Source of the DNA: a virus
Length of the DNA: 27,525 nucleotides
IMG/VR virus record: IMGVR_UViG_3300020189_000057
Location: 1 to 27,525 of that record
Strand: one strand, 5' to 3'
The position numbers were made by a program, and so were the translations under genes. Of the stretch, positions 244 to 23,415 are shown piece by piece; within the stretch, counting starts at the first letter, position 1; every line of letters starts with the position of its first letter. Below the pieces are notes generated by a model. It had not been told where the DNA came from. It worked only from the letters and a program-made list of their open reading frames with translations, and made no database searches.

Positions 244-3200
244 ATGGCTATTACGTTAACAGTAGGAAATACCACCATAATCAAAAAGGTGGTAGTAGGA
301 ACTCCGGTAAAGAAAGTTACTGCAGGCGGTCTTAGTATCGAGGCAATCGCAGGTATTGAATTAACGTCATTAGCCGATAATCAAGTTCTAGTATACGATG
401 ATAATTTAGAAGCATTCGTTAATACTAGTGTTTTACCCATATTAAAAGTTGATAAGTTTTCACTAGATAGTGATACCATTACTATGACTGGTAATAAACT
501 GAACATTAGTTCTACTAGTGAAGTTAATATTACCTCTAGCAATGTTGATATCTCAGGATCTTTAGATGTTGGTTCTAACCTAGATGTGGATGGGGCAACG
601 ACTCTAAACACCGGTAAAATAAACCAGACAACACCTTTTAATGACAGTGATATTGCTTCCAAGCTATACGTTGATCAGGAAATAACTAAGGTAAATGAGT
701 TAGCATTTAAAACCGATGATAACTTCGTAGATTCTGTTGGGATCTATGGCGATGAAAGGGTTAATCTTATTGGTGGGAATGGTATCACTACCTCTGGCCA
801 AAAGATAGGTTCTAATTACAATGCAACATTCTCACTAGATAGTGGCGGTGCAGCGGCGGGAACCTATGGTACTAACTCACTTATTCCCGTCATAAAATTA
901 AATCATCTTGGCCTAGTAGAATCTGCTGGCGAAGTTGCTGTTGCCGGTGTTTCCTCTATCGACTTTGATTCTGCCACAGGTAGATTTACTATTAACACAG
1001 CTGATGGTGGTGTATTCACAGATGTTATTACACTTGATCCGTTTACCACAGATAACTTAGTTGAAGGCAATAATCTTTATTATACCAGAGCAAGATTCGA
1101 TTCTGCATTAGGGGATAATACATCTATTTCTACTATCAGAAATATGATCAGTACTTCTGGTGACTTGCAGTACAATACTAGTACCGGTGTTATCTCGGTT
1201 AACGTTTCCCAGGTTTATACATCAAGCGACTTTGACTCTGATCTAGACGCCGCACTACAATCCTCTACAACTCTTGAATACGATTCCATTAACGATACGT
1301 TTAATGTGAAAAGAAGAGCAGAGACCATCATCGATGTTGATGGTGCCAATGGATCAGTATATACATTCACAGGCGACGGTTTCCCAACTACCTCAGGTGG
1401 TAATCCTGATATCTATCTACACCGTGGTAAGACGTATATTATTAACAATCCATCCCATGCATCACATCCTATCGAGATTAGAACATCCGATGGTGGTTCA
1501 GCCTATACTAATGGTGTTGAAGGTGCTGGTACAAATCAGATAACATTTACTGTTCCATTTAGCGCACCAGCTACATTGGTATATCAATGTACAGTTCACT
1601 CGGGAATGGTTGGAACTTTCTACATTGATCAGGTCCTAACTGGTGGTACGGGTCTTACATATGATGAAGCAAATAGTATCATTGATCTGGATGACACAAC
1701 AGTTACTCCTGGTAGCTATGGTAGTTCAACCCAGATCCCAACATTTACAGTCGATCAACAAGGTAGGCTAACATCTGCAGGATCAACAGCAGTAGCAGGC
1801 GTAACAGATTTTGTATATGATTCCTCGAATGGTAATCTAACTATTAGCACAGCTGATGGCGCTACCTTTACTGATAACATAAATCTAAATCCATTTACCA
1901 CATCCGATCTTGCCGAAGGAACAAATCTATACTATACCACTGCCCGTGCAGATAGTGATGCAAGACATGCGGTAAGTGCTGCAGGCGATCTTTCGTATAA
2001 TCCGAATACTGGGCAATTCAGTATTGACGTTGAAGAGATTTATTCAGCAGATAACTTTGATTCCGACTTGGATGCGGCAATATCTGGTGGCACGGGTCTT
2101 ACATATGATAGTGTCGGTAACACTATAAGTTTAGATGATACCACAGTAACAATTGGATCATACGGTAGTTCAACTTTGATTCCTACCTTTACAGTGGATC
2201 AGCAAGGACGATTAACAGCAGCTGGTGAGGTATCTGTTGCTGGCGTTGATAGTACATCGTGGGATGGAACTACAAGTACCTTTACCATTAATACAGCTGA
2301 TGGTGAGCAATACTCTACATTAATAGACAGTTTTGGTACTAACGTTAAGTTTAATAATGGTATAACTGTAACTGGAGATATCTTACCAAGTGCTGATAGT
2401 TCGTATGATTTAGGATCTCAGACTAAAAAATGGAAAGACCTTTGGTTATCAGGCCAATCAATCCATTTAGGTTCGCTTGTCTTATCAGATAGCTCTGGTT
2501 CATTAAGAGTCACTAACTCGGGGGGCCAGTTAGTCAATGTAGCTGCTAGCCATGCAAGTTTTGATTCAGCAGATATAAGCCAGCTTACTAGTGATTCGGC
2601 AGCAATTGGTCAGCTTTCAGTAGATTCGGCAGATATAAGTCAGCTTACTAGTGACTCTGCCCAAATTGTTAATTTAAGATCTAATACTATAACAGCTGAT
2701 ACTTCCATAAAAGTTAAAGAAAATGGATGGATAGAATTCGAACCTACTGATTATTTGGCAGGTCCGACATATCAAGAAGGAAGATTGTGGTATAATCAGG
2801 ATGCTAAGACGCTTTATTTACAAGGTGCTAGCTCTGATATGGATATTCAAATTGGTGAAAGAGAATGGCTAAGAGCTAGAAATAGCACCTTAGCGACTAT
2901 TGGTAAGGGTAAGCCAGTTTATATGACCGGTGTTCATATACCCGGGCATCCTGTCCATGGGCATCATCCGACAATTGATCTTGCCGATGCGTCTGATGTA
3001 ACTAAGAAGGATGTTATAGGTATTGCTGCCGAAGATATAGCTGCTGGTGCACATGGTTATGTGGTAGTCCGCGGATATATTGATGGAATAGATACTTCAG
3101 CTTTAACTGAAGGCTCGAGGGTTCACTTAGGATTTGCCTCGCCAGGATCTCTAGTTGCAACTGCACCAGAATATCCGAACTATCCTATGGATGTTGGTTT

Positions 3201-5682
3201 ATGTTTAACCGCTGATTCGGCTGCAGCTGGCGGTGCTCTATATGTTCAGATTTTCGATCACACATTCGAAAGATTCCGGGTAACTGGTAATACCCGGGTA
3301 GATGGAAACTTAACTATCGCTGGCAACTTACAGGTTCTCGGTACTCAGCAAACAGCCTCTACTACTGCACTAAACGTATCGGATACATTTATATATTTAG
3401 GCGGCGGGGATACGATCGGTGCTTCAGGTACTAACTTTACTGGTAGCGGACTTAATGACGCTGAGATCAATGGACACTTTACAGGGGAAGCTACTACTAA
3501 TTTTTATGTAAGAATAAAAGATTCTGATGGCTCCGGTAATGACATCATTGAATTTGCCTTAGATTCAGATTTTAATACAATAATAGACTTCGACTCTGAT
3601 GGAACTAATCTTCAGGAATGGAATCTCTCTACTGATGGACTTTCAGCAGTCCTAAGAGGTAATCAGAGCATTACGTTTGGGGCATCAACCGGTCACACCA
3701 TAGGGGATAGATGGTTCGGACAAGCTTCTCCAATTAATGTTCAGATTGGTCTAGCTGGTAACTATAATACTCCTTCTGACTCGTACGCGCACTCGGGATT
3801 GTTTAGGGATCCTGGTGACGGCCGTTGGAAATTCTTCCAAGGGTATCAACCAGAGCCCGAAGGTAGTGTTGATGTAAACCACGCGACCTATGCTTCTGCC
3901 CCAGTAGAATTTAGTATGGCATATGGTAATTTGACTGGTAATGTTACTGGCCAAGTTTCCACCCTACAAAATCATAATACTGATGATTTATCTGAAGGGC
4001 CCACAAATCTATACTATACTACGGCTAGAGCAGATTCTGATGCTAAAAGAGCATTTAGCGTAACAGATGCTGGTGGTGACGGATCCTTAACATATAATAA
4101 TGGTACTGGGGTCATTACCTATACTGGGCCATCAGCTACAGAAGTAAGAGCACATTTTTCTGCTGGTGGGGATTTATCATATGATGCTAATACTGGTCAA
4201 TTTAGTATTGATGTTGAGCAACAGTACACAAAGGCAAATTTTGATAGTGATCTAGGCGACGCTAATACTGGTCAATTACCAGAAGGTACAAACCTCTATT
4301 ACACCACTGCTCGTGCCGATAGTGATTTCGATGTAAGACTGGCAACTAAGACCACTACTGATGTAGCAGAAGGTACAAACCTCTATTACACTACAGCTCG
4401 TGCAGACAGTGACTTTGATGTAAGATTGGCAACTAAGACCACTGATAATCTTACTGAAGGTTCTAGTAATTTATACTACACCACAGCTCGTGCTGATAGT
4501 GATGCAAGACATGCTATTAGTGTATCAGGAGACTTATCATACGATGCCAACACAGGTGTTATTAGTATCGATGTTGAGCAAGAGTATACAAAGGCAAACT
4601 TTGACAGTGACTTAGGTGATGCCAATACCGGTCAATTACCTGAAGGAAGCAATCTATATTACACCACAGCTCGTGCAGATAGTGATGCTAAAAACGCACT
4701 AACAGGTGGAACAGGTATTACATATACGCCAGGTACTGGTACTATAGACATTACTAATACCACGGTCACTGCAGGTACATATGGTTCGGCATCACAAGTT
4801 CCAGTCTTTACAGTTAATGCACAGGGTCAATTAGACTCTGCAGGAACAGTTAGTGTAGCAGGTGTATCATCCACATCATTTGATTCTGCGACAGGCGTAT
4901 TCACAATTAATACTGCAGATGGTGGATCATTCCTTACAACCATACTAGACTCCGACTTTACATCGCAAAGAACGAGAGACGCACTGGTTGCAGGAGACAA
5001 TATCACATATGATTCTGCAACAGGAACAATCTCTGCTAATTCTAGCTATACATCGCTCACAGCCACAGATAGACTAATAGCTTCCAGTGATAGTACCGGG
5101 TCCGTAATGGTAACCCAGAACACTATCCTAAGAACATATGCCAACCGTGATTCTGATTTAAGTGTTATTGCCAATGTAGACAGCTACGGCGATGATATTA
5201 TTAACATCTATATGAGATCAGACTTTAAGACGACTAACCACAGATACTATGGTAATGGTTCGACTAAAGGTTACTATATGGCATTCGATTCAGATGATCT
5301 GTATACATCGAGAGAAATCGAATCACCTCATCTAGATCTATTACCAGGAACTACCTATAGATTCCACCATCATGATTCGTCTATGGCAACACACGATGTT
5401 AGGTTCTATTATGATGATGCTAGAAACGGACCACTATCAGACAGTGCAGCTAAAATAGTTTATACAGGTACTGCAGGAGACAAAGACGTCGGTAACACAT
5501 ATGCTCAAATCAGAGTATTCGATTATGGTCCAAGAACTATTTCATATCAATGTTTAAACCATCCGTATATGGGTAACTCAGCTAACACTAATACAACCGG
5601 TGGCGGCAGAATGTGGAGCACCACCAGCGGTATAAAAATTGCTGGGGATATTGATGCAACAATTGACGGTGGTACATATTAA
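244..5682 (+). CDS. Giant repetitive tail-fibre-like protein with two cupredoxin-like modules
   Basis: This 1812-residue protein is probably a long fibre or fibre-baseplate component of the virion. Seen: seven copies of an EG(x)NLYYTxAR motif; four copies of a module of the form G(S/T)YGSxxxxPxFTVDxQGRL...AGxVxVAGV ending in (N/S)TADG; a [14 protein letters not shown] motif near residues 724-740; a short [12 protein letters not shown] repeat near 775-805; a His cluster at 898-908; and a [15 protein letters not shown] segment near 1020-1035, as in many marine T4-like fibres. Two cupredoxin-like modules lie at about residues 359-463 and 1687-1783. No intramolecular chaperone domain is obvious at the C-terminus, which ends in [10 protein letters not shown]. 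The ATG follows AAGGGG by about 7 bp. The role is inferred from repeat style and neighbours; receptor specificity cannot be read from sequence. Confidence 0.8.
1318..1632 (+). other. Cupredoxin-like module 1 (residues 359-463 of the giant fibre protein)
   Basis: The module has an N-terminal half with [20 protein letters not shown] and a 'His-Pro' ligand loop, then a C-terminal half with [16 protein letters not shown]. Candidate type-1 copper ligands are H408, C449, H452 and M455. The Cys-x2-His-x2-Met spacing is that of amicyanin; plastocyanin has x4 before Met. H408 to C449 spans 41 residues, close to amicyanin (39). Copper binding is inferred from the intact ligand set. Confidence 0.7.
3991..4684 (+). 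repeat. Tandem EG(x)[12 protein letters not shown] repeat block
   Basis: Five of the seven NLYYTTAR copies of the giant fibre gene are clustered here, three of them separated by [16 protein letters not shown] or [11 protein letters not shown] spacers. The repetition is also strong at DNA level. For example, the stretch encoding [20 protein letters not shown] occurs twice with few changes, as does the one encoding [13 protein letters not shown]. Isolated copies lie near 1066 and 1915. Such direct repeats could recombine and change fibre length. Confidence 0.75.
5302..5592 (+). other. Cupredoxin-like module 2 (residues 1687-1783 of the giant fibre protein)
   Basis: Near the C-terminus the fibre carries [20 protein letters not shown], a THDVRF ligand loop, then [12 protein letters not shown]. 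Candidate ligands are H1717, C1770, H1773 and M1776, again Cys-x2-His-x2-Met. It is the most divergent of the five modules in its N-terminal half and has additional histidines (HHH) just before the ligand loop. The fold assignment is by motif and order of elements only. Confidence 0.6.
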
Positions 5683-5686
5683 GTCG

Positions 5687-5694
5687 TATAAATA
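5687..5694 (+). promoter_or_regulatory. T4-type late promoter TATAAATA
   Basis: An exact match to the T4 late promoter -10 consensus TATAAATA lies in the 70-bp gap after the giant fibre gene and 58 bp before the next ATG. T4 late promoters need no -35 element and are read by RNA polymerase carrying gp55 and gp33 with the gp45 clamp. This is the longest non-coding gap in the window, which supports a real promoter. Confidence 0.75.
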
Positions 5695-5752
5695 GTATAA
5701 AGTGCAGGTCGAGTTTTTACTCATTCAAGGCTTTCCTTATTAGGGTTTTAAA

Positions 5753-6967
5753 ATGGCAGCAAATATTAAATTAAAAAGATCCTCGGTTACGGGTAAGATC
5801 CCTACCGATTCAGACTTATCATATGGCGAGTTAGCCCTTAACTATGCTGACGGTCGGCTGTATTATAAGAATACTTCAAATGACATTGCAAGTATTTCAG
5901 GTGGTGGCGCTGAGACAGATAGTGCTGCACCAACATCTGCATTACAGGACGGGTCACTTTGGTGGGACGCTGTTAATGGTAGATTAAAGATTTACTATAA
6001 AGAGCCGGCACCAGCAGCTGCCACTATTGCCCTAACTGCTACCCAAACAAACGCACAAACAGGTGATTATCTTTTCACAGGTACTGATAGACAATCGACG
6101 TATAGTAGTACAGGCGATCCGACCATATATCTTTATAAAGGTGATACTCTAGAGATTGTTAATAATGCGACCTCTGTTCACCCTTTGTGGTTGGTAAGTC
6201 AATTAAGCATTACCAGTAGCTACGATGCGCTATATAATATTCCAGGGGTTACTAATAACGGTGGCTATGATGGAATTACTACCAGTTACCAGTTTAATTC
6301 AGTAGGAACATACTATTATATTTGTCAATTCCATCCTAACATGCAAGGACAAATTATTGTTCAAGATGGGGTCCAAGCTAATACACAATGGGTAGACGCT
6401 TCTCCCACAGGAAGGGGCTACACGGGTTCGGCTGGTGCTATCTTCCAAGGCGAAACTGCACCTTCTAATCCTTCTGATGGACAAATCTGGTATAATTCAA
6501 GTACGGGTAAATCTTATATCTATTATACAAACCCTGCAAGCAATCCACCACAATCTCAATGGGTCTTGCAGGCTGATCCAACAGTAAGTGATGGCGATAT
6601 CGGATATACAGGATCTGTTGGATATGTAGGATCTCAGGGCGTATTTGGCCCGCGGAATATTTCTTTCCAAAATCCTGCAAATGCGGACACCCAAACTTTA
6701 ATCTATACTAATAGAGAAGTTACAATCAATGAAGTTAGATCCGTTATCTCGGGTGGGACTTCTGCAGCAATTTCATTAAAGTGGGATTCCGATAGAGGTA
6801 GTACAGGAACAACTATAATGTCCGAAACTGTTACTGACTCCGGCGGGGGTTCAGTTGCGACTCTTAGTAATAACACAGTTGATGCAAACAGATGGATTTG
6901 GGCAGAGGTAGGAAGTGTTAGCGGATCCGTAAAAGAACTAAGTGTAAACGTAAGATTTAATGAATAG
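5753..6967 (+). CDS. Fibre-associated virion protein with cupredoxin-like module and short collagen-like stretch
   Basis: This 404-residue protein starts with IKLKRSSVTGKIP...GELALNYADGRLYY, an N-terminal motif common in phage tail-fibre proteins that probably docks the protein to another virion part. A GSLWWDAVNGRLKIYY segment follows, then a cupredoxin-like module (about 89-205), a short GYTGS element, a DGQIWYNSSTGKSYIYY segment and a second GYTGS/GYVGS element near 285-295. A C-terminal beta-rich domain (about 297-404) begins PRNISFQNPA and ends VKELSVNVRF, resembling a jelly-roll head. It is the first gene after the late promoter at 5687. AGGG about 9 bp before the ATG is the likely ribosome-binding site. 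The exact role in the virion is unknown. Confidence 0.75.
   Translation: MAANIKLKRSSVTGKIPTDSDLSYGELALNYADGRLYYKNTSNDIASISGGGAETDSAAPTSALQDGSLWWDAVNGRLKIYYKEPAPAAATIALTATQTNAQTGDYLFTGTDRQSTYSSTGDPTIYLYKGDTLEIVNNATSVHPLWLVSQLSITSSYDALYNIPGVTNNGGYDGITTSYQFNSVGTYYYICQFHPNMQGQIIVQDGVQANTQWVDASPTGRGYTGSAGAIFQGETAPSNPSDGQIWYNSSTGKSYIYYTNPASNPPQSQWVLQADPTVSDGDIGYTGSVGYVGSQGVFGPRNISFQNPANADTQTLIYTNREVTINEVRSVISGGTSAAISLKWDSDRGSTGTTIMSETVTDSGGGSVATLSNNTVDANRWIWAEVGSVSGSVKELSVNVRFNE
6017..6367 (+). other. Cupredoxin-like module 3 (residues 89-205)
   Basis: The module reads YLFTGTDRQ...DPTIYLYKGDTLEIVNN, a VHPLWLV ligand loop, then YYYICQFHPNMQGQIIVQD. Candidate ligands are H143, C191, H194 and M197. 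The GTDRQ element and 'GDT' strand are shared with modules 4 and 5, showing common descent among neighbouring genes. This is the clearest canonical cupredoxin pattern in the window together with module 4. Confidence 0.75.
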
Positions 6968-6975
6968 GGAATAAC

Positions 6976-7947
6976 ATGCCAGCACTACAATTTCCAGGAT
7001 CCCCAACACACTTAGATACATATACCGACCCAAACCAGGCGGTGTGGCAATATGACAGTGATAATACAGTTTGGGATCTAATTACTAGTACTACTAGAAA
7101 GGTCTTTAGTGGGGTTAAAGCAAAGACTGCTGCTAACTTCGACTTAACAGCATCTTACCAGGATGTACCCTTTGACACCATTGAATTTAATGTAGATAAT
7201 TATTATCAAACTGTAAACACAAAAGGTATTGCACCTTCCACTGGATTTTACAGGGTACTGGTTTCTGTATTTAGTGACACTCAAGGTACGGGCGCTTCAT
7301 ATTCTGCAGCGGTATATAAAAATGACACACTAAAATTAGGAGAGATTAATTTTGGTGCTAACCAAAACGTGAACTTTGATGAAACAATTTCACTAGTTGA
7401 AGGTGATTTTATTAATGTAAAGGCAAAGGAAAGCACCGGTCTTGGAGCATTGACTACTCAGTCAAACTTTACAATGTATCGGATTGGTTATGCACCAGGG
7501 ACAGGTATTTCTAACCACAGCGCATTTAGTGGCGTAAGAGCAATCGTTACTCAAAATGTAAACACTACCTCTACACCAACTTCTATTACTTGGGGTAACA
7601 CAGACTTCAATGCAAACTCTAATGTATTAGGCGATCTGTATTGGTATAATTCAGAAGCGACAAGATTGACACCTAAGACTTCTGGTTATTATAAAGTTAG
7701 ATCTTTGGTTGAAACCACATCTGCGGGCTCAGCAAATTCATATACTATTACATTAAGAAAAACAAATCCGCAATTAGTGTCTACAACACTTACTACTATT
7801 AATATGTCACCCAATGATCAGATTGAATTAGACGAAACAATCTATTTGGATGCGGATAATTACGTAGACCTACTTGTATCAAACTCCGATAATACAGGAG
7901 CTATATTATCAACCGTTTATTTAGAACTCGTCAGAGAAGGAGTATAA
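6976..7947 (+). CDS. Virion protein with two tandem C1q/TNF-like jelly-roll domains
   Basis: The 323-residue protein opens with LQFPGSPTHLDTYTDPNQAV and then W-Q-Y-D-S-D and VWDL. This is the 'FP.nP.dGdtYt...W.YD...W' N-terminal module also seen at the start of the collagen-like gene at 13544, and probably an attachment segment. Two similar beta-rich domains follow, about 42-175 and 180-323. Each begins with FSGV(K/R)A and contains a Gly-(F/Y)-Tyr-(R/K)-Val strand, a TLK or TLRK strand and a 'DE(T/I)..L..(G/D)(D/N)(F/Y)' strand, the usual order in C1q-like heads of phage fibres. A trimeric head or tip role is inferred. AGGG precedes the ATG by 8 bp, and the next gene starts one base after the stop. 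Confidence 0.65.
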   Translation: MPALQFPGSPTHLDTYTDPNQAVWQYDSDNTVWDLITSTTRKVFSGVKAKTAANFDLTASYQDVPFDTIEFNVDNYYQTVNTKGIAPSTGFYRVLVSVFSDTQGTGASYSAAVYKNDTLKLGEINFGANQNVNFDETISLVEGDFINVKAKESTGLGALTTQSNFTMYRIGYAPGTGISNHSAFSGVRAIVTQNVNTTSTPTSITWGNTDFNANSNVLGDLYWYNSEATRLTPKTSGYYKVRSLVETTSAGSANSYTITLRKTNPQLVSTTLTTINMSPNDQIELDETIYLDADNYVDLLVSNSDNTGAILSTVYLELVREGV

Positions 7948-7948
7948 A

Positions 7949-8317
7949 ATGGCATTCGTCAAATCAACCAGTACACTTTCTGCTGATGCCATTACGGTGC
8001 CTAACCTTTCCGGCGGCGATAATGGTAAAGTGGTAAGGATCTCTGGATCAAACACAGCAGTGAACGCAGCTAACACAGATACATCTGCGCAATTATTTAA
8101 TATCTTATTTAAAATTGGTGATGAGTATTATGCACAAGGTACTGTATCAGGACTATCTGGTCTTACACCTGGCGCATCTTATTATCTATCTACAGCAGGT
8201 AACATTCAAAGTTCACCACCCACCCCAACAGCATCGACTCGAGCATTGTTTATAGGGTTTGCTCTTAATACTACAGATATTGTCTTTAGACCCGGAATTC
8301 CAATCTCAGGATCATAA
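7949..8317 (+). CDS. Small fibre-associated structural protein
   Basis: This 122-residue protein contains LSGGDNGKVVRISGSNTAV and, near the middle, the pattern SGLTPGASYYLSTAGNIQSS followed by ALFIGFALNTTDIVFRPG. The 'GLTPGa.YYLs..G.i...' element recurs in many small beta-sandwich proteins and domains attached to phage tail fibres. It has no signal peptide or transmembrane segment. A strong AAGGAG site overlapping the end of the upstream gene and a one-base gap indicate translational coupling with the tandem jelly-roll protein. It may be a decoration or fibre-joint protein; the specific role is not known. Confidence 0.6.
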   Translation: MAFVKSTSTLSADAITVPNLSGGDNGKVVRISGSNTAVNAANTDTSAQLFNILFKIGDEYYAQGTVSGLSGLTPGASYYLSTAGNIQSSPPTPTASTRALFIGFALNTTDIVFRPGIPISGS

Positions 8318-8320
8318 TTT

Positions 8321-11300
8321 ATGGCTATAGCTAATTTAACCCAAGAAGTTTCCCTAGTAGATTCAGATTTTCTGGGATTACCAGTTCAGCATCATATTTC
8401 TGATAATGGTTACTGGTATGTGTATCACCCATCGGATCTAACTAATAACTCTCAGTTAACGAATAATGCTATTGAAGCATATAAGTGGGATTCGGCTCTT
8501 CACATTGATCCTACATATTATTTAAGTGCTAGTGATCCAACTTATGCAACAACAGATGGTACTTTTGCGTTTGTTACAGAGACTTGGGATGGAGCGACTA
8601 AAAGATATCACGGTGGTGCTATTCAGCACATTGGTACTGGTACAAACGATATTACGGGTACTTCAGAAAACGATGCGTTTATGTTTTCTCACATCGGTAC
8701 ATTTGGTAACGATGGTGCCACCCCTGGTGGTACTCTAGAAGATGATGCTTTCTATTGGGATAGACTGTATCAAAGAACTGCCGGTGATGAGTGGGAATTC
8801 TATCAGTACCACAAGCACTTACCGTCCAACTATTCTAAGTACGATGATGGTAGAATAGTATTCGGATCAGACGGATTTATTAGACCAGCTGATAAACAAT
8901 ATGGTTACCTGATTAATATCTTAGCTAAGCAGGGGCAGAGTGCATACTCAGTTCCTCTTGCTCGTATCCACACTCCTTCTGTTGGTGGTGCGCACAACTC
9001 ACACAACGATGTTACCTTACCAAACGTTGCCGGTGTTAACTATCTACCTGGCGGTATTCTAAAAGGTAGTTCGAATAGATTCCATGCATTCTATTTGGAG
9101 GATGCGAATAACGCTGACAGTGAGTGGAACGTTTATTCTAGAACATATACATCATCGTCAGGTTCTTTTACAGCACAAGTTAACTATGGGGCTTTTGATA
9201 TTAAGGTTCCAAACTTTGATCCTTATCCTGGAGCTGATGAGGATAATGAAGGCACACAGAATGACTATTCCTTCTCTATAAGCGCTGGTCACACATTTGG
9301 TTCATATGTCTATTGGCCAGTAACTATGAAAGCAGTCACAAGAAGCTGGGCCGTAGAGACTGTTGTACCTGGCGGTCAGAACGTATACAGGATTGATGGT
9401 ACAGATAGACAAGAACCTGGAACACTAGATGCTACAACGAACCATCCTACTATTCAAATGAAAGTTGGTGACACAATAGTATTTGATGTTGCAGATGATT
9501 ATTTAGTACATCCACTTTACGTTAAAACTAATAGCCAATCAAATACCAACAACCCAGCCCCAGGTTCTTCAGGTAATGGCACTGCAACAGTTACATTTAC
9601 ACCCCAGTCAGCTGGAACTTTTTATTATGTTTGTGTTGTACATAGTGGTATGTATGGCGAGATTGAAGTTACAGCTCTTGAAGGTACAGGAGACCTAAAG
9701 ATCTGGAGAGTCACAGACGCTAATACTATTTCTCCTGGTTCACTTACACAGATTGATATGCCTTGGCCATTCCAAGGAACAGATGTTACACCATCTGCAC
9801 TAATCACATCAGTTGGAACAAATGGTTATATTGCTGCAGCCGGCGGTACCGGTGGCGGTGCTCAGATGTATAGTTTCGCCACACAACTAGATTCTGGTGG
9901 ACAATTAGTATTCCAGGGTGATATCGTAACTAACCCAGCAGATCAATATCTAAGAATCCATGGATTTAAATACAATGCGGAGAATACAAAGTACTATGCA
10001 TTGCTTTCGGGTAATGATGGTGTAGGTACATATGCAGGCGACGGGCTTTATAGCTGGGACTTAGCTGGTGGAACATTTGAAGGCTACGCACATTTGGATA
10101 TTGATACCTCTAGTTTAGGATTTGTAAACAGAGGAAACAATACATCTGGTTATTTGTCTTATAATAACGCTACTGGTGTTATTACTAGAGACGGTTCTAA
10201 CACAGAGCCTGAAGGTATTCCAAACGGTGTTAATATTTTAACCTGGGATGATGCTTCTCCACTATTCTATAACAGAAAAGAGATTAACACAGGATCTACA
10301 GAATATTATTTCCAAGGAATATATCTATCAGATGGGCGTAAGGCACTAGTGGGAAGAGTCGAGGATGCGCCTGGAAATATAGGAACTGAATTAACCGGCG
10401 ATCTACTTTTAACCATTGTCGATAACGAGAACAATTCTGTTAGCTATACCTACGGATTAGAGGGTGATGACTTTGTTACAGGAATCATCGAAGATGTAGA
10501 AAATAATAAAATTATTCTATCAGGATATGCAAAAGGTGAATTAGCAGATAAGTCTAAGCAATGGGTTCACGGTTGGGCTAGAAATATAAACAATTCATAT
10601 GACTCTGCAAACTGCACATATGAATCAATTATGAGAGATAATGCTGGTGATTATATTGCTGTAGGAAATGACAGTATAAATGAAGATATATTAGTTTCGT
10701 ATTACGATAAAGACTTTACCGTAACCGATACAAAATTCGTATCGATTGGGGCTCAGCTGGATCGGGTGTCAAAAATCGTACATGATGAAGATACGGGCGA
10801 TAGATATATGATAGGGCATACATATAACGGAAGCCTACCATTTTCATCGGCTCTTATAATTAAAATGAATTCTTCTAACGAAGTAGTTTGGTCAAAAAGA
10901 TATGGCGCTGCAAGTCGGTATGTTAAAGGCCCTGCAATTGAAATTGTAGAGTATTCAGGTGTAAAGTATCTTGTAGCATTCTTTCAATCTAGCCTGGTTG
11001 CAGAAAATGATTTCAGAAGTGGTGCAGTAGTCATATTAAATACTGACGGTACGATTATCAGAACTAGGGACCTTTCAGAAATTAACACAGGAACGGGTTT
11101 GTTCATTAACTCAATTAAAGGTGGTGGACAAAATACTGGTAAATTCTTTATAAGTGGTTCAGCTGCAACCCTAGATGGAAGTGCGGTTGGTAGAACGCCT
11201 GCATGGGCCTTCTGTGATGTAAATGATCCACTCATAGTAAAGTATATAAGATACACTGATTATAACGGATTCACTCTAGCTGACCAGCAAACATATGATG

Positions 11301-13540
11301 ATTATGAGGCTGCTTGGCTTGATATTGATATAATAAAATATGATTCGGATCTATCAACCCATGAAATTATTCTGGGTGGTAAAAAGGAAGACGTATCTTT
11401 AGCTGATGGTGCTTCTGCTACTGCTCTTGCCCCAATGGGTGAAAGAGGTCACACTTCCTTTGCACTACTTCAAAAAGCTAAAATTGCAGACTCGGCTGTC
11501 TACAGTGTAGATGTATTATGGACCAAACAAATCTCTTCCGGTAAAGGATACATGGAAGAGATTAATTCGGTATTGGTAGAGGATTCTGATAGCAGACCCT
11601 GGTGGTTCTTCGAAGATGAGGAGTTTCATGATGGCAATCATAGAGTCATCTTTGCTGGTACTGGGCTAAACTTAGATAGTACTGCTGGAACGTTAATGAG
11701 AGCCGACACTCTTATAGGTGGTGTTAATACAAATGATGGATCCTTATATTTCCACAGTTCATTAGGACACATGGGTGAAGATAATATTAATAAAGATATG
11801 ATCTGGGATCACCTCACCAGAAACTTTGTTACTGTAGGATCTTCTACCTCACACTCAGTAGGTAAAGACGGTGTACTATTTAGAGGTGAAAAAGAAGGAT
11901 GGGGTCAAGGTGTATATCACACAGCTGCTTCCACTTCTAACGCATATTACTATGACTCTGCAACGATTACTACATCCGATGAAACCCTACTTGAAGCAAA
12001 TATTTTGGAAATTAGTAACCCCAGTTTTCTAGACTTTAACTTTACTTCTAATAATATTTCTGCATCTTTGATAGACAGAACATATAATACTTTAGAGTAC
12101 AATGGTTCATATGGTGCTAACGGTCTATTCACAGGCTTCCTAGCAATCGTGGATAAAGATGATCTACAATCATTCTTGAACACCGATGCCTATCGTGAAG
12201 AAAAAGCAGCTGGGAAAATTATTCACCGAGCAGAATCCATATTCGAAATTCACCAGGTGTCGACTGTAGGCGATGCGACGGCGGATGACGGTAACGTATT
12301 CTTCTATGATGTTATCAAATCAGCAGACGGCGAATACTACTATCTTGCGGGTCAAACATCTGGTAATATTGCTAAGCAAAACACTGGGCTATCAGGTGTT
12401 TATGATTACTTCCTAGGTCAATGGGATATCGCTTCTAAGGAATTTAGATTCTGGCAGAATGGTACAGCAGAAGACGAAGAGATCTATGCTCTTACTGAAC
12501 TAGAAGGTACATCAAAGGCAGTTACAGATCCGGAAGCAGTAAACAATGGTGCATTTAAAGGCACTATTAGTTGGACACCAACAACTGCTGGGACATACTA
12601 CTATCAGTGTGGTAATCATACAAGCATGAATGGCCAGATTGTTGTTCAAGATGTAGTGGGTACAAGTTCAACATTCAATGTTACTGCAGCATATGATAAT
12701 GCACCTAGCGCATTCAGATTTAGTGGTACAGACCGTGTCGGAAATATTAACCCGGCAACTGATAATCCAACATTGACTATAGATACTAATGATACAATTA
12801 ATATTGCAGTCGATAATCGTGGGCACCCACTTTGGATCCAAACCGAAACTGGTACTGGTGGGGCCAAAAAAGGACACATTGCCTTTACCGGAAGAACCAC
12901 TGGTAACCTAGCAAATGGTACATTATTTGGCGGTTATGATATCTTCTTAGGTATTTTTGATCCTAGAGCTTGGACTGCTGAATATTATAATATCGGATCT
13001 GGCTTCAATGATAAGGGTATGAATATCCATGATATTAATAGTAATGTAGAAAACACACTAGCAATTACCTACACATCATTTGGTTCTGTTAATAACGCCT
13101 TAACATTTGGATCTGAAGACATTGGTATTATTACATTTAATTACGACTCTGATACCTGGTCACCAGGATATCAAACAGGGTCAGAAACATCAGAAGAGAT
13201 TGAACAAAACGGTAAGCCTAGCTCCAGACTTCCAGATGGAAGAATTGGCGTAGTATGTAATACCGCGGGTGCCTTCGCGGACGACGCGAATACGTTCGGA
13301 TTGAAAGATATGGGACTTGGTATATTCGACTTTGACAGTGATGGTTCAGGTAATTATCTTGGGTGGAAGAAATATCAGGTTGGGTCTGGATCATCAGACT
13401 TTTCATATAGTATAGATAATAATGGCTCTAGCTTTCTTATAACAGGATACTCAGAGGCAACATGGGATAAAGACGTTTCAGGTGTATTTGTTGAATTTGA
13501 TCCTGAAAGAAACATAAAAGGTAAAGCATCGGGAACTTAA
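8321..13540 (+). CDS. Giant propeller-like virion protein with a canonical and a circularly permuted cupredoxin-like module
   Basis: A 1739-residue protein without signal peptide or membrane segment. Residues 1-340 form an aromatic-rich N-terminal region (YWYVYHPSDL, EWEFYQYHKHLPSN). A cupredoxin-like module spans about 343-452. From about 455 to 1400 and 1515 to 1739 it has recurring beta-strand units of the form 'DG.YY.AGQT.....D.FLG.(W/F)D', such as EYYYLAGQTSGN...DYFLGQWD and HIAFTGRTTGN...DIFLGIFDPR. These resemble SBBP/beta-propeller blades. A permuted cupredoxin module interrupts the last blades at about 1401-1515. The gene lies between fibre genes, starts 3 bp after the previous stop and lacks a strong Shine-Dalgarno. 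It is probably a large adsorption-apparatus or baseplate-peripheral protein; the propeller assignment is by eye and is moderate. Confidence 0.65.
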   Translation: MAIANLTQEVSLVDSDFLGLPVQHHISDNGYWYVYHPSDLTNNSQLTNNAIEAYKWDSALHIDPTYYLSASDPTYATTDGTFAFVTETWDGATKRYHGGAIQHIGTGTNDITGTSENDAFMFSHIGTFGNDGATPGGTLEDDAFYWDRLYQRTAGDEWEFYQYHKHLPSNYSKYDDGRIVFGSDGFIRPADKQYGYLINILAKQGQSAYSVPLARIHTPSVGGAHNSHNDVTLPNVAGVNYLPGGILKGSSNRFHAFYLEDANNADSEWNVYSRTYTSSSGSFTAQVNYGAFDIKVPNFDPYPGADEDNEGTQNDYSFSISAGHTFGSYVYWPVTMKAVTRSWAVETVVPGGQNVYRIDGTDRQEPGTLDATTNHPTIQMKVGDTIVFDVADDYLVHPLYVKTNSQSNTNNPAPGSSGNGTATVTFTPQSAGTFYYVCVVHSGMYGEIEVTALEGTGDLKIWRVTDANTISPGSLTQIDMPWPFQGTDVTPSALITSVGTNGYIAAAGGTGGGAQMYSFATQLDSGGQLVFQGDIVTNPADQYLRIHGFKYNAENTKYYALLSGNDGVGTYAGDGLYSWDLAGGTFEGYAHLDIDTSSLGFVNRGNNTSGYLSYNNATGVITRDGSNTEPEGIPNGVNILTWDDASPLFYNRKEINTGSTEYYFQGIYLSDGRKALVGRVEDAPGNIGTELTGDLLLTIVDNENNSVSYTYGLEGDDFVTGIIEDVENNKIILSGYAKGELADKSKQWVHGWARNINNSYDSANCTYESIMRDNAGDYIAVGNDSINEDILVSYYDKDFTVTDTKFVSIGAQLDRVSKIVHDEDTGDRYMIGHTYNGSLPFSSALIIKMNSSNEVVWSKRYGAASRYVKGPAIEIVEYSGVKYLVAFFQSSLVAENDFRSGAVVILNTDGTIIRTRDLSEINTGTGLFINSIKGGGQNTGKFFISGSAATLDGSAVGRTPAWAFCDVNDPLIVKYIRYTDYNGFTLADQQTYDDYEAAWLDIDIIKYDSDLSTHEIILGGKKEDVSLADGASATALAPMGERGHTSFALLQKAKIADSAVYSVDVLWTKQISSGKGYMEEINSVLVEDSDSRPWWFFEDEEFHDGNHRVIFAGTGLNLDSTAGTLMRADTLIGGVNTNDGSLYFHSSLGHMGEDNINKDMIWDHLTRNFVTVGSSTSHSVGKDGVLFRGEKEGWGQGVYHTAASTSNAYYYDSATITTSDETLLEANILEISNPSFLDFNFTSNNISASLIDRTYNTLEYNGSYGANGLFTGFLAIVDKDDLQSFLNTDAYREEKAAGKIIHRAESIFEIHQVSTVGDATADDGNVFFYDVIKSADGEYYYLAGQTSGNIAKQNTGLSGVYDYFLGQWDIASKEFRFWQNGTAEDEEIYALTELEGTSKAVTDPEAVNNGAFKGTISWTPTTAGTYYYQCGNHTSMNGQIVVQDVVGTSSTFNVTAAYDNAPSAFRFSGTDRVGNINPATDNPTLTIDTNDTINIAVDNRGHPLWIQTETGTGGAKKGHIAFTGRTTGNLANGTLFGGYDIFLGIFDPRAWTAEYYNIGSGFNDKGMNIHDINSNVENTLAITYTSFGSVNNALTFGSEDIGIITFNYDSDTWSPGYQTGSETSEEIEQNGKPSSRLPDGRIGVVCNTAGAFADDANTFGLKDMGLGIFDFDSDGSGNYLGWKKYQVGSGSSDFSYSIDNNGSSFLITGYSEATWDKDVSGVFVEFDPERNIKGKASGT
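9347..9676 (+). other. Cupredoxin-like module 4 (residues 343-452)
   Basis: Order of elements is canonical: YRIDGTDRQ, HPTIQMKVGDTIVFDV, ligand loop VHPLYVK, ATVTFTPQSAGTFYYVC, then VVHSGMYGEIEV. Candidate copper ligands are H397, C438, H441 and M444, with 41 residues between H397 and C438. The DGTDRQ element matches the GTDRQ of module 3, and the 'TFTP..AGTFYY' strand matches module 5. Confidence 0.75.
12521..12865 (+). other. Circularly permuted cupredoxin-like module 5 (residues about 1401-1515)
   Basis: Here the C-terminal half comes first: GTISWTPTTAGTYYYQC then GNHTSMNGQIVVQD, giving C1430, H1433 and M1436. A linker (FNVTAAYDNAP) leads to what is normally the N-terminal half: FRFSGTDR, NPTLTIDTNDTINIAV, then RGHPLWIQTE with H1502. 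The first-ligand histidine therefore follows the Cys-His-Met cluster by 66-72 residues instead of preceding it. All four ligands are present. Confidence 0.7.
13263..13290 (+). other. GC-rich inverted repeats inside the propeller gene
   Basis: About 75% GC in an otherwise AT-rich gene. TTCGCG (13274-13279) and CGCGAA (13285-13290) form a perfect 6-bp stem with a 5-base loop. The overlapping CCGCG (13263-13267) and CGCGG (13276-13280) form an alternative stem. The two structures exclude each other. Function is unknown, and a chance origin is possible. Confidence 0.4.
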
Positions 13541-13543
13541 CAT

Positions 13544-15445
13544 ATGGCAATCATTAACTTTCCAACGAATCCATCAGATGGTGATACATACATCACTAAC
13601 GAAGGGGTATTATATACCTACGACGCCGCATCAACATCTTGGGTGGTTGATGCAGCAATTGGTTATACTGGTTCACAGGGGTTTACCGGTTCAGCCGGAT
13701 CGGGTTTTACCGGATCAAGAGGTAGTCTAGGTTATACTGGTTCGCTTGGTTATACTGGTTCACAGGCTTATACCGGATCAAGAGGATTTACTGGATCAGG
13801 GGCTAATTCTGGAAACGTATACCAAGTTGATACAGGGACAACCGCTACATCTACAGCAGGATCTTATACTGTTGCTGGACAGCTATTATTCAATAATGCT
13901 ACACTAACATCTGCTACTGAAATTGGTCTTCACCAGAATGCAGTGAATAATGCTTCTTGGGGGACATACATTGATACATGGGATGACCTGGGTGGGACTA
14001 GCAATCGTGGTATGCTACTTTTAAAAAGTGATGATGTTAACTCTGGTGATTATCTTATGTTCCAGATCTCTGGTAGTGTTAATACTGCTGGTAACGGTAA
14101 ATATTTTACTGTATCATATGTATCAGGGCAATTAGGTTCCATTACAAATAATTCTCGACTTATTGCTAACTTTATTCCTGTTGGGATATCAGGATTCACT
14201 GGTTCTCAAGGTGGCATCGGTTACACAGGATCTCAAGGTCTTAGAGGATTCACTGGTTCTCAAGGGGAGAGAGGATTTACAGGATCTCAAGGTCTTAGAG
14301 GATTCACTGGTTCTCAAGGTCTTAGAGGATTCACTGGTTCTCAAGGTCTTAGAGGATTTACAGGATCTCAAGGGGTGATTGGATACACCGGATCCAGAGG
14401 TTACACAGGATCTCAAGGTATCATCGGTTACACAGGATCCAGAGGTTACACAGGATCTCAAGGTATCATCGGCTACACCGGATCTCGTGGTCTTATCGGA
14501 TACACAGGATCCAGAGGATATACCGGATCTCGTGGTCCTATCGGATATACTGGATCTCAAGGTGGCATCGGTTACACAGGATCTCAAGGTATCATCGGCT
14601 ACACTGGATCTCAAGGATACACTGGGTCCAGAGGATATACCGGTTCAAGGGGATCAGATGGTACATCAATTGCAATTCAAGGTACAGTTGCTACAACAGG
14701 TGACCTACCTAGTTCGGGTAATACTGCAGGCGATGCTTACATTGTTACTGCCAATGGTAATCTATACGTTTGGGATGGGGCAGCATGGCAAGATGCTGGA
14801 CAGTTTGCTGGATACACCGGATCTCAAGGCCCACGTGGTTACACAGGATCTCGTGGTCCTATCGGATATACTGGATCTCGTGGACCTATAGGATACACAG
14901 GATCCAGAGGATATACCGGATCTCGTGGTTCTATCGGATATACTGGATCTCAAGGCCCACGTGGTTACGCTGGATCTCGTGGACCTATAGGATACACAGG
15001 ATCTCAGGGTCCACGTGGCTACGCTGGATCTCAAGGACCTATAGGATACACAGGATCTCAAGGCCCACGTGGTTACGCTGGTTCTCAGGGTCCTAGAGGA
15101 TACGCTGGATCTCAAGGACCACGTGGTTACGCTGGATCTCAAGGTCCACGTGGTTACGCTGGTTCTCAGGGTCCTAGAGGATACGCTGGATCTAGAGGTC
15201 CCAGAGGATATACCGGATCTCGTGGTCCTATAGGTTACACAGGATCTCAAGGTGGTGGTGGTCCACGCGGCTACACAGGATCTCGTGGTTCTATAGGTTA
15301 CACAGGATCTCAAGGTGGTGGTGGTGCACGCGGCTACACAGGATCAGCCGGAGGAAGCGGCGGACCAGGTCCTAGAGGTTATACAGGCTCAGCAGGATTT
15401 ATTAGCTGGGGATTACATTGGGCAGCAGGAATAATATTTGGGTAA
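13544..15445 (+). CDS. Collagen-like fibre protein (GYTGS repeats)
   Basis: The 633-residue protein has an N-terminal FPTNPSDGDTYITNEGVLYT...WVVD module, as at 6976, which probably anchors it to the virion. Three Gly-X-Y blocks follow (about residues 40-86, 217-371, 423-618), dominated by units such as GLR-GFT-GSQ and GPR-GYT-GSQ. They should form a trimeric collagen-like stalk. A beta-rich domain (87-216) separates blocks 1 and 2. A small domain with TTGDLPSSGNTAGDAYIV and LYVWDGAAWQDAG separates blocks 2 and 3. Proline occurs mainly in block 3 as GPR/GPI. The end is short and hydrophobic (FISWGLHWAAGIIFG), with no visible trimerisation head, so the small proteins encoded downstream may cap it. 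Collagen-like fibres of this type are common in marine T4-like phages. Confidence 0.85.
   Translation: MAIINFPTNPSDGDTYITNEGVLYTYDAASTSWVVDAAIGYTGSQGFTGSAGSGFTGSRGSLGYTGSLGYTGSQAYTGSRGFTGSGANSGNVYQVDTGTTATSTAGSYTVAGQLLFNNATLTSATEIGLHQNAVNNASWGTYIDTWDDLGGTSNRGMLLLKSDDVNSGDYLMFQISGSVNTAGNGKYFTVSYVSGQLGSITNNSRLIANFIPVGISGFTGSQGGIGYTGSQGLRGFTGSQGERGFTGSQGLRGFTGSQGLRGFTGSQGLRGFTGSQGVIGYTGSRGYTGSQGIIGYTGSRGYTGSQGIIGYTGSRGLIGYTGSRGYTGSRGPIGYTGSQGGIGYTGSQGIIGYTGSQGYTGSRGYTGSRGSDGTSIAIQGTVATTGDLPSSGNTAGDAYIVTANGNLYVWDGAAWQDAGQFAGYTGSQGPRGYTGSRGPIGYTGSRGPIGYTGSRGYTGSRGSIGYTGSQGPRGYAGSRGPIGYTGSQGPRGYAGSQGPIGYTGSQGPRGYAGSQGPRGYAGSQGPRGYAGSQGPRGYAGSQGPRGYAGSRGPRGYTGSRGPIGYTGSQGGGGPRGYTGSRGSIGYTGSQGGGGARGYTGSAGGSGGPGPRGYTGSAGFISWGLHWAAGIIFG
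13661..13802 (+). repeat. Collagen-like repeat block 1
   Basis: Short Gly-X-Y block with GYTGSQ, GFTGSA, GYTGSL and AYTGSR units. Phase breaks (GSGFTGSRGS, SQAYTGS) make it less regular than the later blocks. Confidence 0.75.
14192..14656 (+). repeat. Collagen-like repeat block 2
   Basis: Regular 27-bp (9-residue) units encoding G-(L/I/E)-x-G-(F/Y)-T-G-S-(Q/R). Several consecutive copies of the GLRGFTGSQ unit are nearly identical in DNA (14282-14370), using repeated GGTTCTCAAGG or GGATCTCAAGG cores. This is consistent with recent unit duplication. Confidence 0.85.
14810..15397 (+). repeat. Collagen-like repeat block 3
   Basis: Longest Gly-X-Y block, with alternating GPRGYTGSQ, GPIGYTGS and GPRGYAGSQ units and GGG interruptions near the end (15250-15390). 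Proline is at the X position only. DNA units are near-identical, for example repeated CCACGTGGTTACGCTGG, so unequal recombination could change copy number. Confidence 0.85.
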
Positions 15446-20415: not shown

Positions 20416-23415
20416 ATGAAAATTGCTATTATAGATTTACTTGGATTGACTTATGATGGAAACACACTACAATCTAGAGGATTAGGTGGATCGGAATCTG
20501 CTGTAATTTTAATCTCACAGGAACTTCAAAAAATAGGATTTGAGGTTACAGTATTTAACAATTGTAAAGATTCTAGAGCGAATCCTGGTTTATATGATCA
20601 GGTAAATTATGTGGATCATTCTGACTCTGACCCTGAAGAATTCTTCGATATTGTAATTTCTTCCCGTTCGGTTTTCCCGTTTTTTGAAGATAGTAAGTAT
20701 AGCAAAATGTGTGCACGGGCTAGTTATAAAGTAGTCTGGATGCACGACACATTTTGTGAGGGTGATCAGCATATAGAGGATATGCTAAACAAAGGTATTA
20801 TTGACGAACTATTTACGTTATCAGACTTCCATACAAATTATATTCTTAATTGTGAACATGGCCAAAAACGGAATTATGAAGTATTAAAAAACAAGATCTT
20901 TCAAACACGTAACGGTGCAGTTAAATGGTTTAAAGACGAATATAGATTAGCTAATAAAGATAAAAATCATTTTGTATATAATGCCTCAGTCACTAAAGGC
21001 CTTAAGCCACTATTGAATCATATTTGGCCAAAGGTAAAGGAAAAAATACCAGAAGCTAAATTAACTGTTATCGGTGGATATTATAGATTCAGGGAAGGTG
21101 CCGAACCAGATGCCCAAGAAAAAGATCTACATAAATTTAGAGAAGAGATTGATCCTAAATTAGAAGTTACATTTACTGGTGTGATTTCACAATATAAAAT
21201 TGGAGAAATACTTTCTAAAGCCGGGTTTATGATATATCCCACCGACTTTCCTGAAACATTTGGTATCTCCACGCTAGAGGCTTTACTTTATAAAACACCG
21301 GTCATTACTTGTAACTTTGGTGCATTAGAATCCACTGCACTAGACTTAGCATGTTATAAGATTGATTATGCAAGTGTGCCTAATGGGCTATTTCCACATA
21401 TAAATGAAGAACATCAATCGAATCTATTTGTTGATTTGGTTTTAAGAGCATATAATGATGACTATCTAACAGACCAAAAGCGTACTTATTGTGAAGTGGT
21501 TGAGGACATTCACGGATGGGATACTGTAGCTTTGCAGTGGAAGCAGCAGATTTATTTCAGAATGGAGAAATATTTGCCGGTCAGTGACTTTAGAAAGGTT
21601 AGATATATCAATGATAAGGTCAATAGGGTTTATGGTAAAACATTTACTAATGAAGTGGAAAGACAGAACTATGAAAAGACCTGTCCGGAAAAAAGAATAT
21701 TAATCATATCTCCTTTTAGAAATGCAGAGAATTATATTCAGGCCCATTGTGAATCTATTGACCAGCAAGATTATGAGAATTATTTACACATAGTCATTAA
21801 TGATAATTCTGACGATGATAGTAAAAATAGAATACCTTCTAATCCCAAACGTATCGTCATAAACAATGAGATTCGAAAAGGATGTATTTCAAATCAACTA
21901 CACGCAGTCCAAAAGTATGTACAGCGAGGGGATATCGTCATGCTATTGGATGGTGACGATTTTCTAGTAAGTAATAATACCATTTTTAACTATTATAATT
22001 TTCTATATGAACAAGGTTACCAATTTACGTATGGATCTTGTTGGAGCTTAGCTGATGGGATACCCCTAATAGCCCAAAGCTATCCTGAAAAGGTTAGGAA
22101 GGATAAATCCTTTAGAAGATATTTGTTTAATTGGAAAATTCCTTATACCCATCTAAGGACCTGTTTAGGTGAAACCTTCGGTAAATTAAAATGGGAAAGA
22201 TATAAAGACGAGAATGGCGATTTTATGATGAGTGGCATGGATAACCCGTTGTTTTACGAATTAATAGAAAACACTCCGTCTGAAAGAATTAAAGCAGTAA
22301 AAGAGATTGTTTGTTATTATAATGATATTAATCCTTTGAATGATTATAAGATCCACAGTGAAGAACAAAATATAAATGCAAATAAATCTTATGAAAAAAA
22401 ATACCTGGAAGGGGGACAAGTGAAACCCGCAGATAAAACTATATTAATAGCTATTCCTACTAATGCAGGAATTGAACCCGAAACCTTTAGATCAATTTAT
22501 AATATGAGAGTGCCTGATGGATATAATCTAAAATTCGAATATTTCTACGGTTACCAGATTGATCAGATTAGGAACTTGATTGCAGAGTGGGCGAAGCACT
22601 ACGATTACCTATTTAGTATTGACAGTGATATTGTAGTACCAGAAGACGCCTTAGAGAAAATGTTAGCTCATGATAAGGATGCGGTTTCAGGTGTTTACAT
22701 CCAAAGGCTTCATGATAGACAAACCGTAGAATTATACTATGACGATTCGATGGGTCAAATTAATTATACCGGTGAAAATCTCCCTAAGGACCAACTAATT
22801 TCTGTGTCTGCGTTTGGATTTGGATGTGTACTTATTAAAGGCGAAGTCTTTAGAAGTATTGAATATCCCCATTTTGTTTACTATTCAGCATTGGACCATA
22901 AAGATACCGTTTCGGAAGATGTGGATTTCTGTAAGAAGGCTAAAGATAAAGGATTTGAATTATATGCAGATACAAGTATCATCTGCGATCATATCGGCAA
23001 ACATACATTTAAATTAGGATCACCGACTGTAGAACCCCCCGCTATCAAGGAAGAAGCACCAGAACATATTATATATGACTTGGTTGATAATTCCTTATAT
23101 AAAGTGGTCAACGGTGTTGCTAATATTGTAATAGAAAATATAGAGGAAGGTCTAGATTTAAACGTTCCGATGAACTCTCTTCCTTATCCTGATCTTTTGA
23201 GGATTGATTCAATAGGTAATGAGATTCATTTTATTAAAACTGCCACGATGGTCTTAGAAAATACTCAAGAGGTTATCATAAGAATTAGAAATGATGAGCC
23301 TGATAGCAATCTGATTAGGCAATATTTAATAGATCTATCCTTTGAATCTGGGGGTATTGTAGGTCAAAGTGAAGAGGATAAAGATTACAAATTCTTCAGA
23401 GCTAAAAGTATATAA
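20416..23415 (+). CDS. Three-domain glycosyltransferase (GT-B plus two GT-A-like domains)
   Basis: A 999-residue enzyme, probably cytoplasmic, that would transfer sugars from activated donors. Domain 1 (about 1-400) is GT-B/GT4-like: an N-terminal RGLGGSESAVILI loop, GVISQYKIGEILSKAGFMIY, and PETFGISTLEAL containing the E280-x7-E288 motif. Domain 2 (about 425-660) is GT2-like: RILIISPFRNAENYI, HIVINDNSDDDS and the metal/nucleotide-sugar motif LDGDDF (D512, D514, D515). Domain 3 (about 674-860) is another GT-A-like fold: TILIAIPTNAG and FSIDSDIVVP (D736, D738). About 130 C-terminal residues are unassigned. The enzyme has no membrane helix. It lies between fibre genes and the neck genes with promoters on both sides. 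Acceptor unknown: virion fibres or host surface glycan are both possible. Confidence 0.85.
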   Translation: MKIAIIDLLGLTYDGNTLQSRGLGGSESAVILISQELQKIGFEVTVFNNCKDSRANPGLYDQVNYVDHSDSDPEEFFDIVISSRSVFPFFEDSKYSKMCARASYKVVWMHDTFCEGDQHIEDMLNKGIIDELFTLSDFHTNYILNCEHGQKRNYEVLKNKIFQTRNGAVKWFKDEYRLANKDKNHFVYNASVTKGLKPLLNHIWPKVKEKIPEAKLTVIGGYYRFREGAEPDAQEKDLHKFREEIDPKLEVTFTGVISQYKIGEILSKAGFMIYPTDFPETFGISTLEALLYKTPVITCNFGALESTALDLACYKIDYASVPNGLFPHINEEHQSNLFVDLVLRAYNDDYLTDQKRTYCEVVEDIHGWDTVALQWKQQIYFRMEKYLPVSDFRKVRYINDKVNRVYGKTFTNEVERQNYEKTCPEKRILIISPFRNAENYIQAHCESIDQQDYENYLHIVINDNSDDDSKNRIPSNPKRIVINNEIRKGCISNQLHAVQKYVQRGDIVMLLDGDDFLVSNNTIFNYYNFLYEQGYQFTYGSCWSLADGIPLIAQSYPEKVRKDKSFRRYLFNWKIPYTHLRTCLGETFGKLKWERYKDENGDFMMSGMDNPLFYELIENTPSERIKAVKEIVCYYNDINPLNDYKIHSEEQNINANKSYEKKYLEGGQVKPADKTILIAIPTNAGIEPETFRSIYNMRVPDGYNLKFEYFYGYQIDQIRNLIAEWAKHYDYLFSIDSDIVVPEDALEKMLAHDKDAVSGVYIQRLHDRQTVELYYDDSMGQINYTGENLPKDQLISVSAFGFGCVLIKGEVFRSIEYPHFVYYSALDHKDTVSEDVDFCKKAKDKGFELYADTSIICDHIGKHTFKLGSPTVEPPAIKEEAPEHIIYDLVDNSLYKVVNGVANIVIENIEEGLDLNVPMNSLPYPDLLRIDSIGNEIHFIKTATMVLENTQEVIIRIRNDEPDSNLIRQYLIDLSFESGGIVGQSEEDKDYKFFRAKSI

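Follow-up and report, generated by a model that had tools for sequence, protein, structure and literature searches.

In well-studied cupredoxins the type-1 copper site is a redox centre. Amicyanin (PDB 1SFD, 1AAC) is a free periplasmic electron carrier, and another cupredoxin is already familiar from cyanophages, where plastocyanin is encoded by the auxiliary gene petE, a separate photosynthesis gene of 324-369 bases (PMC3037559). The nearest published idea to copper in a phage tail is that of iron in phage fibres (PMC11705849); our literature search, which missed most subscription journals, found no paper describing cupredoxins or blue copper in phage tails or virion parts. The cupredoxin domain family itself is old.

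The window analysed here, a virus record of 27.5 kb (27,525 nucleotides), has a T4-type gene order, with large fibre proteins, a collagen-like fibre, neck proteins, a tail sheath stabilizer and terminase subunits, and is best explained as the cluster of baseplate-to-fibre genes from a T4-type phage that is a relative of cyanophages. The virus is of marine type and infects bacteria. The start of its large terminase is 78.5% identical to that of phage C48C1, the nearest phage by terminase and one placed in Kyanoviridae, as against 55-57% for the nearest marine cyanophages; no cupredoxin module was found within the two stretches of C48C1 that were read. The window also encodes a 323-aa protein with a weak C1q-like match (6976-7947; E=0.009), possibly a trimeric fibre tip, and a 999-aa protein with several glycosyltransferase matches (20416-23415) lying between the fibre cluster and the neck genes.

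Three open reading frames carry the modules described below: P0001 (244-5682), a large fibre/baseplate protein of 1812 aa, P0002 (5753-6967), a fibre protein of 404 aa, and P0003 (8321-13540), a protein of 1739 aa that is directly followed on its 3' side by a collagen-repeat fibre protein of 633 aa (13544-15445). All three frames are open and translate as reported in the first-pass annotation, and the five sets of a histidine plus Cys-x2-His-x2-Met that it had described were all found at the residues it gave. The C-x2-H-x2-M motifs begin at P0001 449 and 1770, P0002 191, and P0003 438 and 1430, and the first histidines of the sets are confirmed as H408, H1717, H143, H397 and H1502. All modules are on the plus strand. 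M1 (1309..1632) spans P0001 residues 356-463 with ligands H408, C449, H452 and M455; M2 (5284..5613) lies in the C-terminal region of the same protein, at about residues 1680-1790 (H1717, C1770, H1773, M1776); M3 (6017..6367) occupies residues 89-205 of the 404-aa protein (H143, C191, H194, M197); M4 (9344..9679) occupies residues 342-453 of the 1739-aa protein (H397, C438, H441, M444); and M5, further along that protein, is split into two halves discussed below. By chance, in shuffles of the same composition, 0 to 0.001 C-x2-H-x2-M motifs are expected per protein. Cysteine is rare in the three proteins, with 9 in 3955 residues, and five of these nine are the ligands listed here.

A profile of M1, M3, M4 and their relatives, searched against solved structures, found amicyanin (E=1.5e-9), plastocyanin (2e-8), auracyanin A (4e-8) and copper nitrite reductase (5e-11), and in the amicyanin alignment both the C-x2-H-x2-M motif and the histidine loop of the modules fall on the copper ligands. 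The Pfam family Copper-bind (PF00127) matched 13 of 15 members at E up to 0.1, M3 reaching 22.7 bits and so exceeding the curated cut-off of 21.2. Searching the PDB with M1 as a single sequence gave nothing significant, and only the profile search succeeded. We also built a search profile in which the four ligand columns were masked, to keep the ligands from helping it to find a sequence; it recovered the module widely, M1 at E=6e-30 and M4 at E=1.3e-36. As the profile finds amicyanin with its ligands aligned and Pfam matches are obtained, M1, M3 and M4 are clear cupredoxins, and judged by sequence the domain identity of these three and of M5 is almost certain. For M2 the outcome differs: every one of the seven distinct relatives with coverage of all four ligand positions retains the ligands, but the hhalign probability drops from 30% with the ligands to 0.3% once they are masked, the AF2 model is of low confidence (pLDDT 49.8), and a Foldseek search with that model returned no usable match. 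We therefore treat M2 as a candidate, a cupredoxin-like ligand set only. The original proposal of five cupredoxin-like modules thus holds for M1, M3 and M4 through profile and Pfam matches and for M5 through the masked HMM and the AF2 model described below, and for M2 it extends to the ligand residues, with the cupredoxin fold a candidate assignment.

The modules share with amicyanin cupredoxin homology, the histidine loop and the short C-x2-H-x2-M ligand loop, and differ from it in being domains inside phage structural proteins of 404-1812 residues. Being embedded in such large proteins, they are not a soluble periplasmic electron carrier of methylamine dehydrogenase. Nor are they petE: they are virion domains within frames of 404, 1739 and 1812 aa and not a small free-standing gene.

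In M5 the two halves of the domain stand in reversed order. The stretch matching positions 56-114 of the ligand-masked HMM (E=9.8e-9), which corresponds to the C-terminal half and holds C1430, H1433 and M1436, comes first in the 1739-aa protein (12506..12655), and the N-terminal half, matching positions 13-73 (E=6e-7) and holding H1502, comes second (12656..12880), 14 residues from the first. The residues of this fifth set had been correctly listed in the first-pass annotation, which did not name the order as a circular permutation. The swapped order recurs in every relative found, giving ten distinct sequences with the window's own, in all of which the four ligands are invariant; because these come from separate contigs, an assembly error is ruled out as its source. 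The permuted core strands are modelled by AF2 at pLDDT 75-97 by ten-residue block. On both sequence and predicted structure, then, M5 is a natural circularly permuted cupredoxin, with the Cys-His-Met half ahead of the His half. Its flanks match a beta-propeller in Foldseek and VIA-align searches, with CylK as the best match, which places the inserted pair in a propeller hairpin; as the match lists are filled by these propeller flanks, they are uninformative on the permuted core. M5 also aligns across the junction of tandem modules in four other loci (L036-L039) at 41-42% identity, which suggests that it arose by duplication followed by loss of the outer halves.

The claim that selection acts on the ligands themselves, beyond their neighbours, had been framed in advance with ligands varying as freely as surrounding positions as the contrary outcome. 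We examined it, with the ligand-masked profile, in 55 non-redundant modules sharing less than 70% identity; one of the patterns used to collect loci, AGTYYYQ, ends just ahead of the cysteine. The complete H, C, H, M set is present in 48 of them. The four ligand columns reach 0.89, 0.87, 0.89 and 0.96, whereas the 96 other columns average 0.47 with a median of 0.41, and the x positions inside CxxHxxM score only 0.25-0.36, so that ligands conserved at 87-96% sit among neighbours at 25-36%. A further eight columns, mostly Gly, Pro and Tyr, match the ligands in conservation, as fold constraint would lead one to expect. The seven exceptions drop their ligands jointly: no module keeps the cysteine while losing the second histidine, and co-loss of these two gives a Fisher p=2e-7, a value that is not corrected for kinship and overstates independence, since the losses are confined to a few clades. 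These results make it highly probable, as far as sequences can tell, that the modules are under selection for metal binding.

The same exceptions bear on a different explanation, in which the modules are pure adhesion scaffolds, their fold captured from a plastocyanin-like gene of the host, with the ligands packing loops and no metal in the virion. Modules without ligands do exist in fibres: one group (L056, L051, L082, L043) has, for example, G, N, R and M in place of H, C, H and M, and would serve as a natural metal-free control. The loss of the site from certain modules in fibres of this kind shows that it is dispensable in places. Beta-sandwiches are, moreover, often recruited by fibre proteins, and phage proteins are folded in a cytosol with little free copper, which could leave the sites vacant or occupied by a different metal. 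However, the seven exceptions, like that group, retain most of the other conserved fold residues, which indicates that metal site and fold can be uncoupled and that the ligands are not needed for folding; and packing poorly explains four metal-type ligands kept at such levels in proteins otherwise so poor in cysteine. We consider the metal-free scaffold unlikely, and rank it first among the alternatives, ahead of copper display to a host receptor and, last, redox triggering.

Modules of the M1 type are widespread, occurring in 339 phage records, mostly from Synechococcus and Prochlorococcus phages, and often at the C-terminus of gp9, the baseplate wedge tail fibre connector. Among the module matches we sampled 13 annotated phage records, 12 of them cyanophages, and all 14 complete modules in these records keep the four ligands. 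The podovirus P-SCSP2 and an actinomycete phage carry the module as well. A scan of species genomes with M3 matched only three Actinomycetota MAG contigs, leaving no clear cellular source. In the tree, M1 groups with the cyanophage gp9 modules with a support of 100/100. The start of S-SM1 gp9 resembles T4 gp10 and gp9, and the cyanophage domain therefore ends the protein where fibres are thought to attach. That the same domain ends gp9, a baseplate-fibre connector, in the sampled cyanophages bears out the placement on the adsorption apparatus put forward earlier.

The position of M1 in the large protein is itself occupied variably: in the tree, the module at this slot is of the gp9 type for the window and L002 and of a different subfamily for L004, L006 and L010, with the ligands kept in both. 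This shows module subfamilies exchanging at a fixed slot, as if one had been swapped for another. Such swapping, the permutation of M5 and the wide spread in cyanophages go beyond the first-pass annotation, whose five ligand sets are retained here. In other marine fibres several modules are stacked, and in some of these a complete module comes after or inside another. Four fibre proteins (L062, L052, L045 and L090, with frames at 864, 2627, 731 and 1570) have nested or truncated modules: in the nested type one or two complete modules stand between an N-terminal half-module and a C-terminal half, and in the truncated type complete modules precede a shortened one whose four ligands are intact.

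Presence on the baseplate-fibre proteins of cyanophages is also what one would look for if the tail delivered copper to the host or displayed it there, for a copper-uptake or redox protein of the host to recognise; we know of no receptor for it, however, and the cupredoxin partners cytochrome f and photosystem I are located inside the cell. The thought has a parallel in the iron hypothesis discussed for marine phages and T4 fibres, by which iron in phage tails exploits siderophore receptors (PMC11705849), copper display being its copper version. On balance we find this quite improbable. Sites that sense redox state or pass electrons at the cell surface, and so set off adsorption or contraction, would fit the presence of several on one protein and the redox use of type-1 sites in known cupredoxins, but neither a partner enzyme nor a second redox centre is visible within the window and electron transfer across fibre distances is implausible, which makes this a very improbable role.

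Taken together, the best reading is of a structural module, mobile and under selection to bind metal, probably type-1 copper, that sits on the adsorption apparatus. In the fibre proteins, cupredoxin modules would serve as beta-sandwich building blocks that can replace one another, each retaining a complete amicyanin-type copper site (His ... Cys-x2-His-x2-Met). The sites would take up metal, most likely copper, once the phage is released or while the cell lyses, with the lysate or sea water as the source for the apo-domain. At the tip of each sandwich the metal would join the His loop with the Cys-His-Met loop, a tie that may make the exposed adsorption apparatus stiffer and better protected and may shape the surface that contacts the host. 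We regard this reading as a whole, interchangeable fibre modules whose amicyanin-type sites are metal-filled and structural, as likely; that copper is present in the virion is somewhat probable. A role that is mainly structural or adhesive rather than redox is proposed only tentatively, and it is likewise a tentative suggestion that T4-type marine phages bear copper-loaded amicyanin-like centres in their baseplate-fibre apparatus and need the metal for adsorption or stability. Complete sites are preserved in many related viruses, which suggests that the particle may bear copper at the place where it takes hold of the host.

T4-like cyanophages belong to the most abundant viruses of the sea. 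If their connector carries copper, the metal would link adsorption of the phage and stability of the virion with the copper cycle of the sea in a way that we found nowhere described; and if the copper-loaded reading is true, abundant marine virus particles would be a class of copper proteins, one that includes a naturally circularly permuted type-1 copper domain. The permuted M5 and the swapping of subfamilies at a fixed slot show that a metal-site domain serves as a mobile part of the virion.

Two other described systems stand close to this locus. Cyanophage gp9 (PHROG 677) has about 400 residues, against the 1812 of P0001, and ends at its module; it shares with P0001 an M1-subfamily module, C-terminal in gp9, with all four ligands. 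PHROG 677 matches P0001 86-462; BLASTP of the part of P0001 upstream of M1 against one gp9 found no homology, and a gp9-homologous N-terminal body is not supported by that comparison. The second system is T4 gp37, to whose iron, in the tip of the long tail fibre, the putative role of copper may be likened. The receptor-binding tip of gp37, like the modules as we read them, has metal ions bound within an adsorption fibre (PMC11705849), whereas gp37 holds octahedral iron through HxH motifs along the fibre and the modules have a predicted type-1 copper site within a beta-sandwich.
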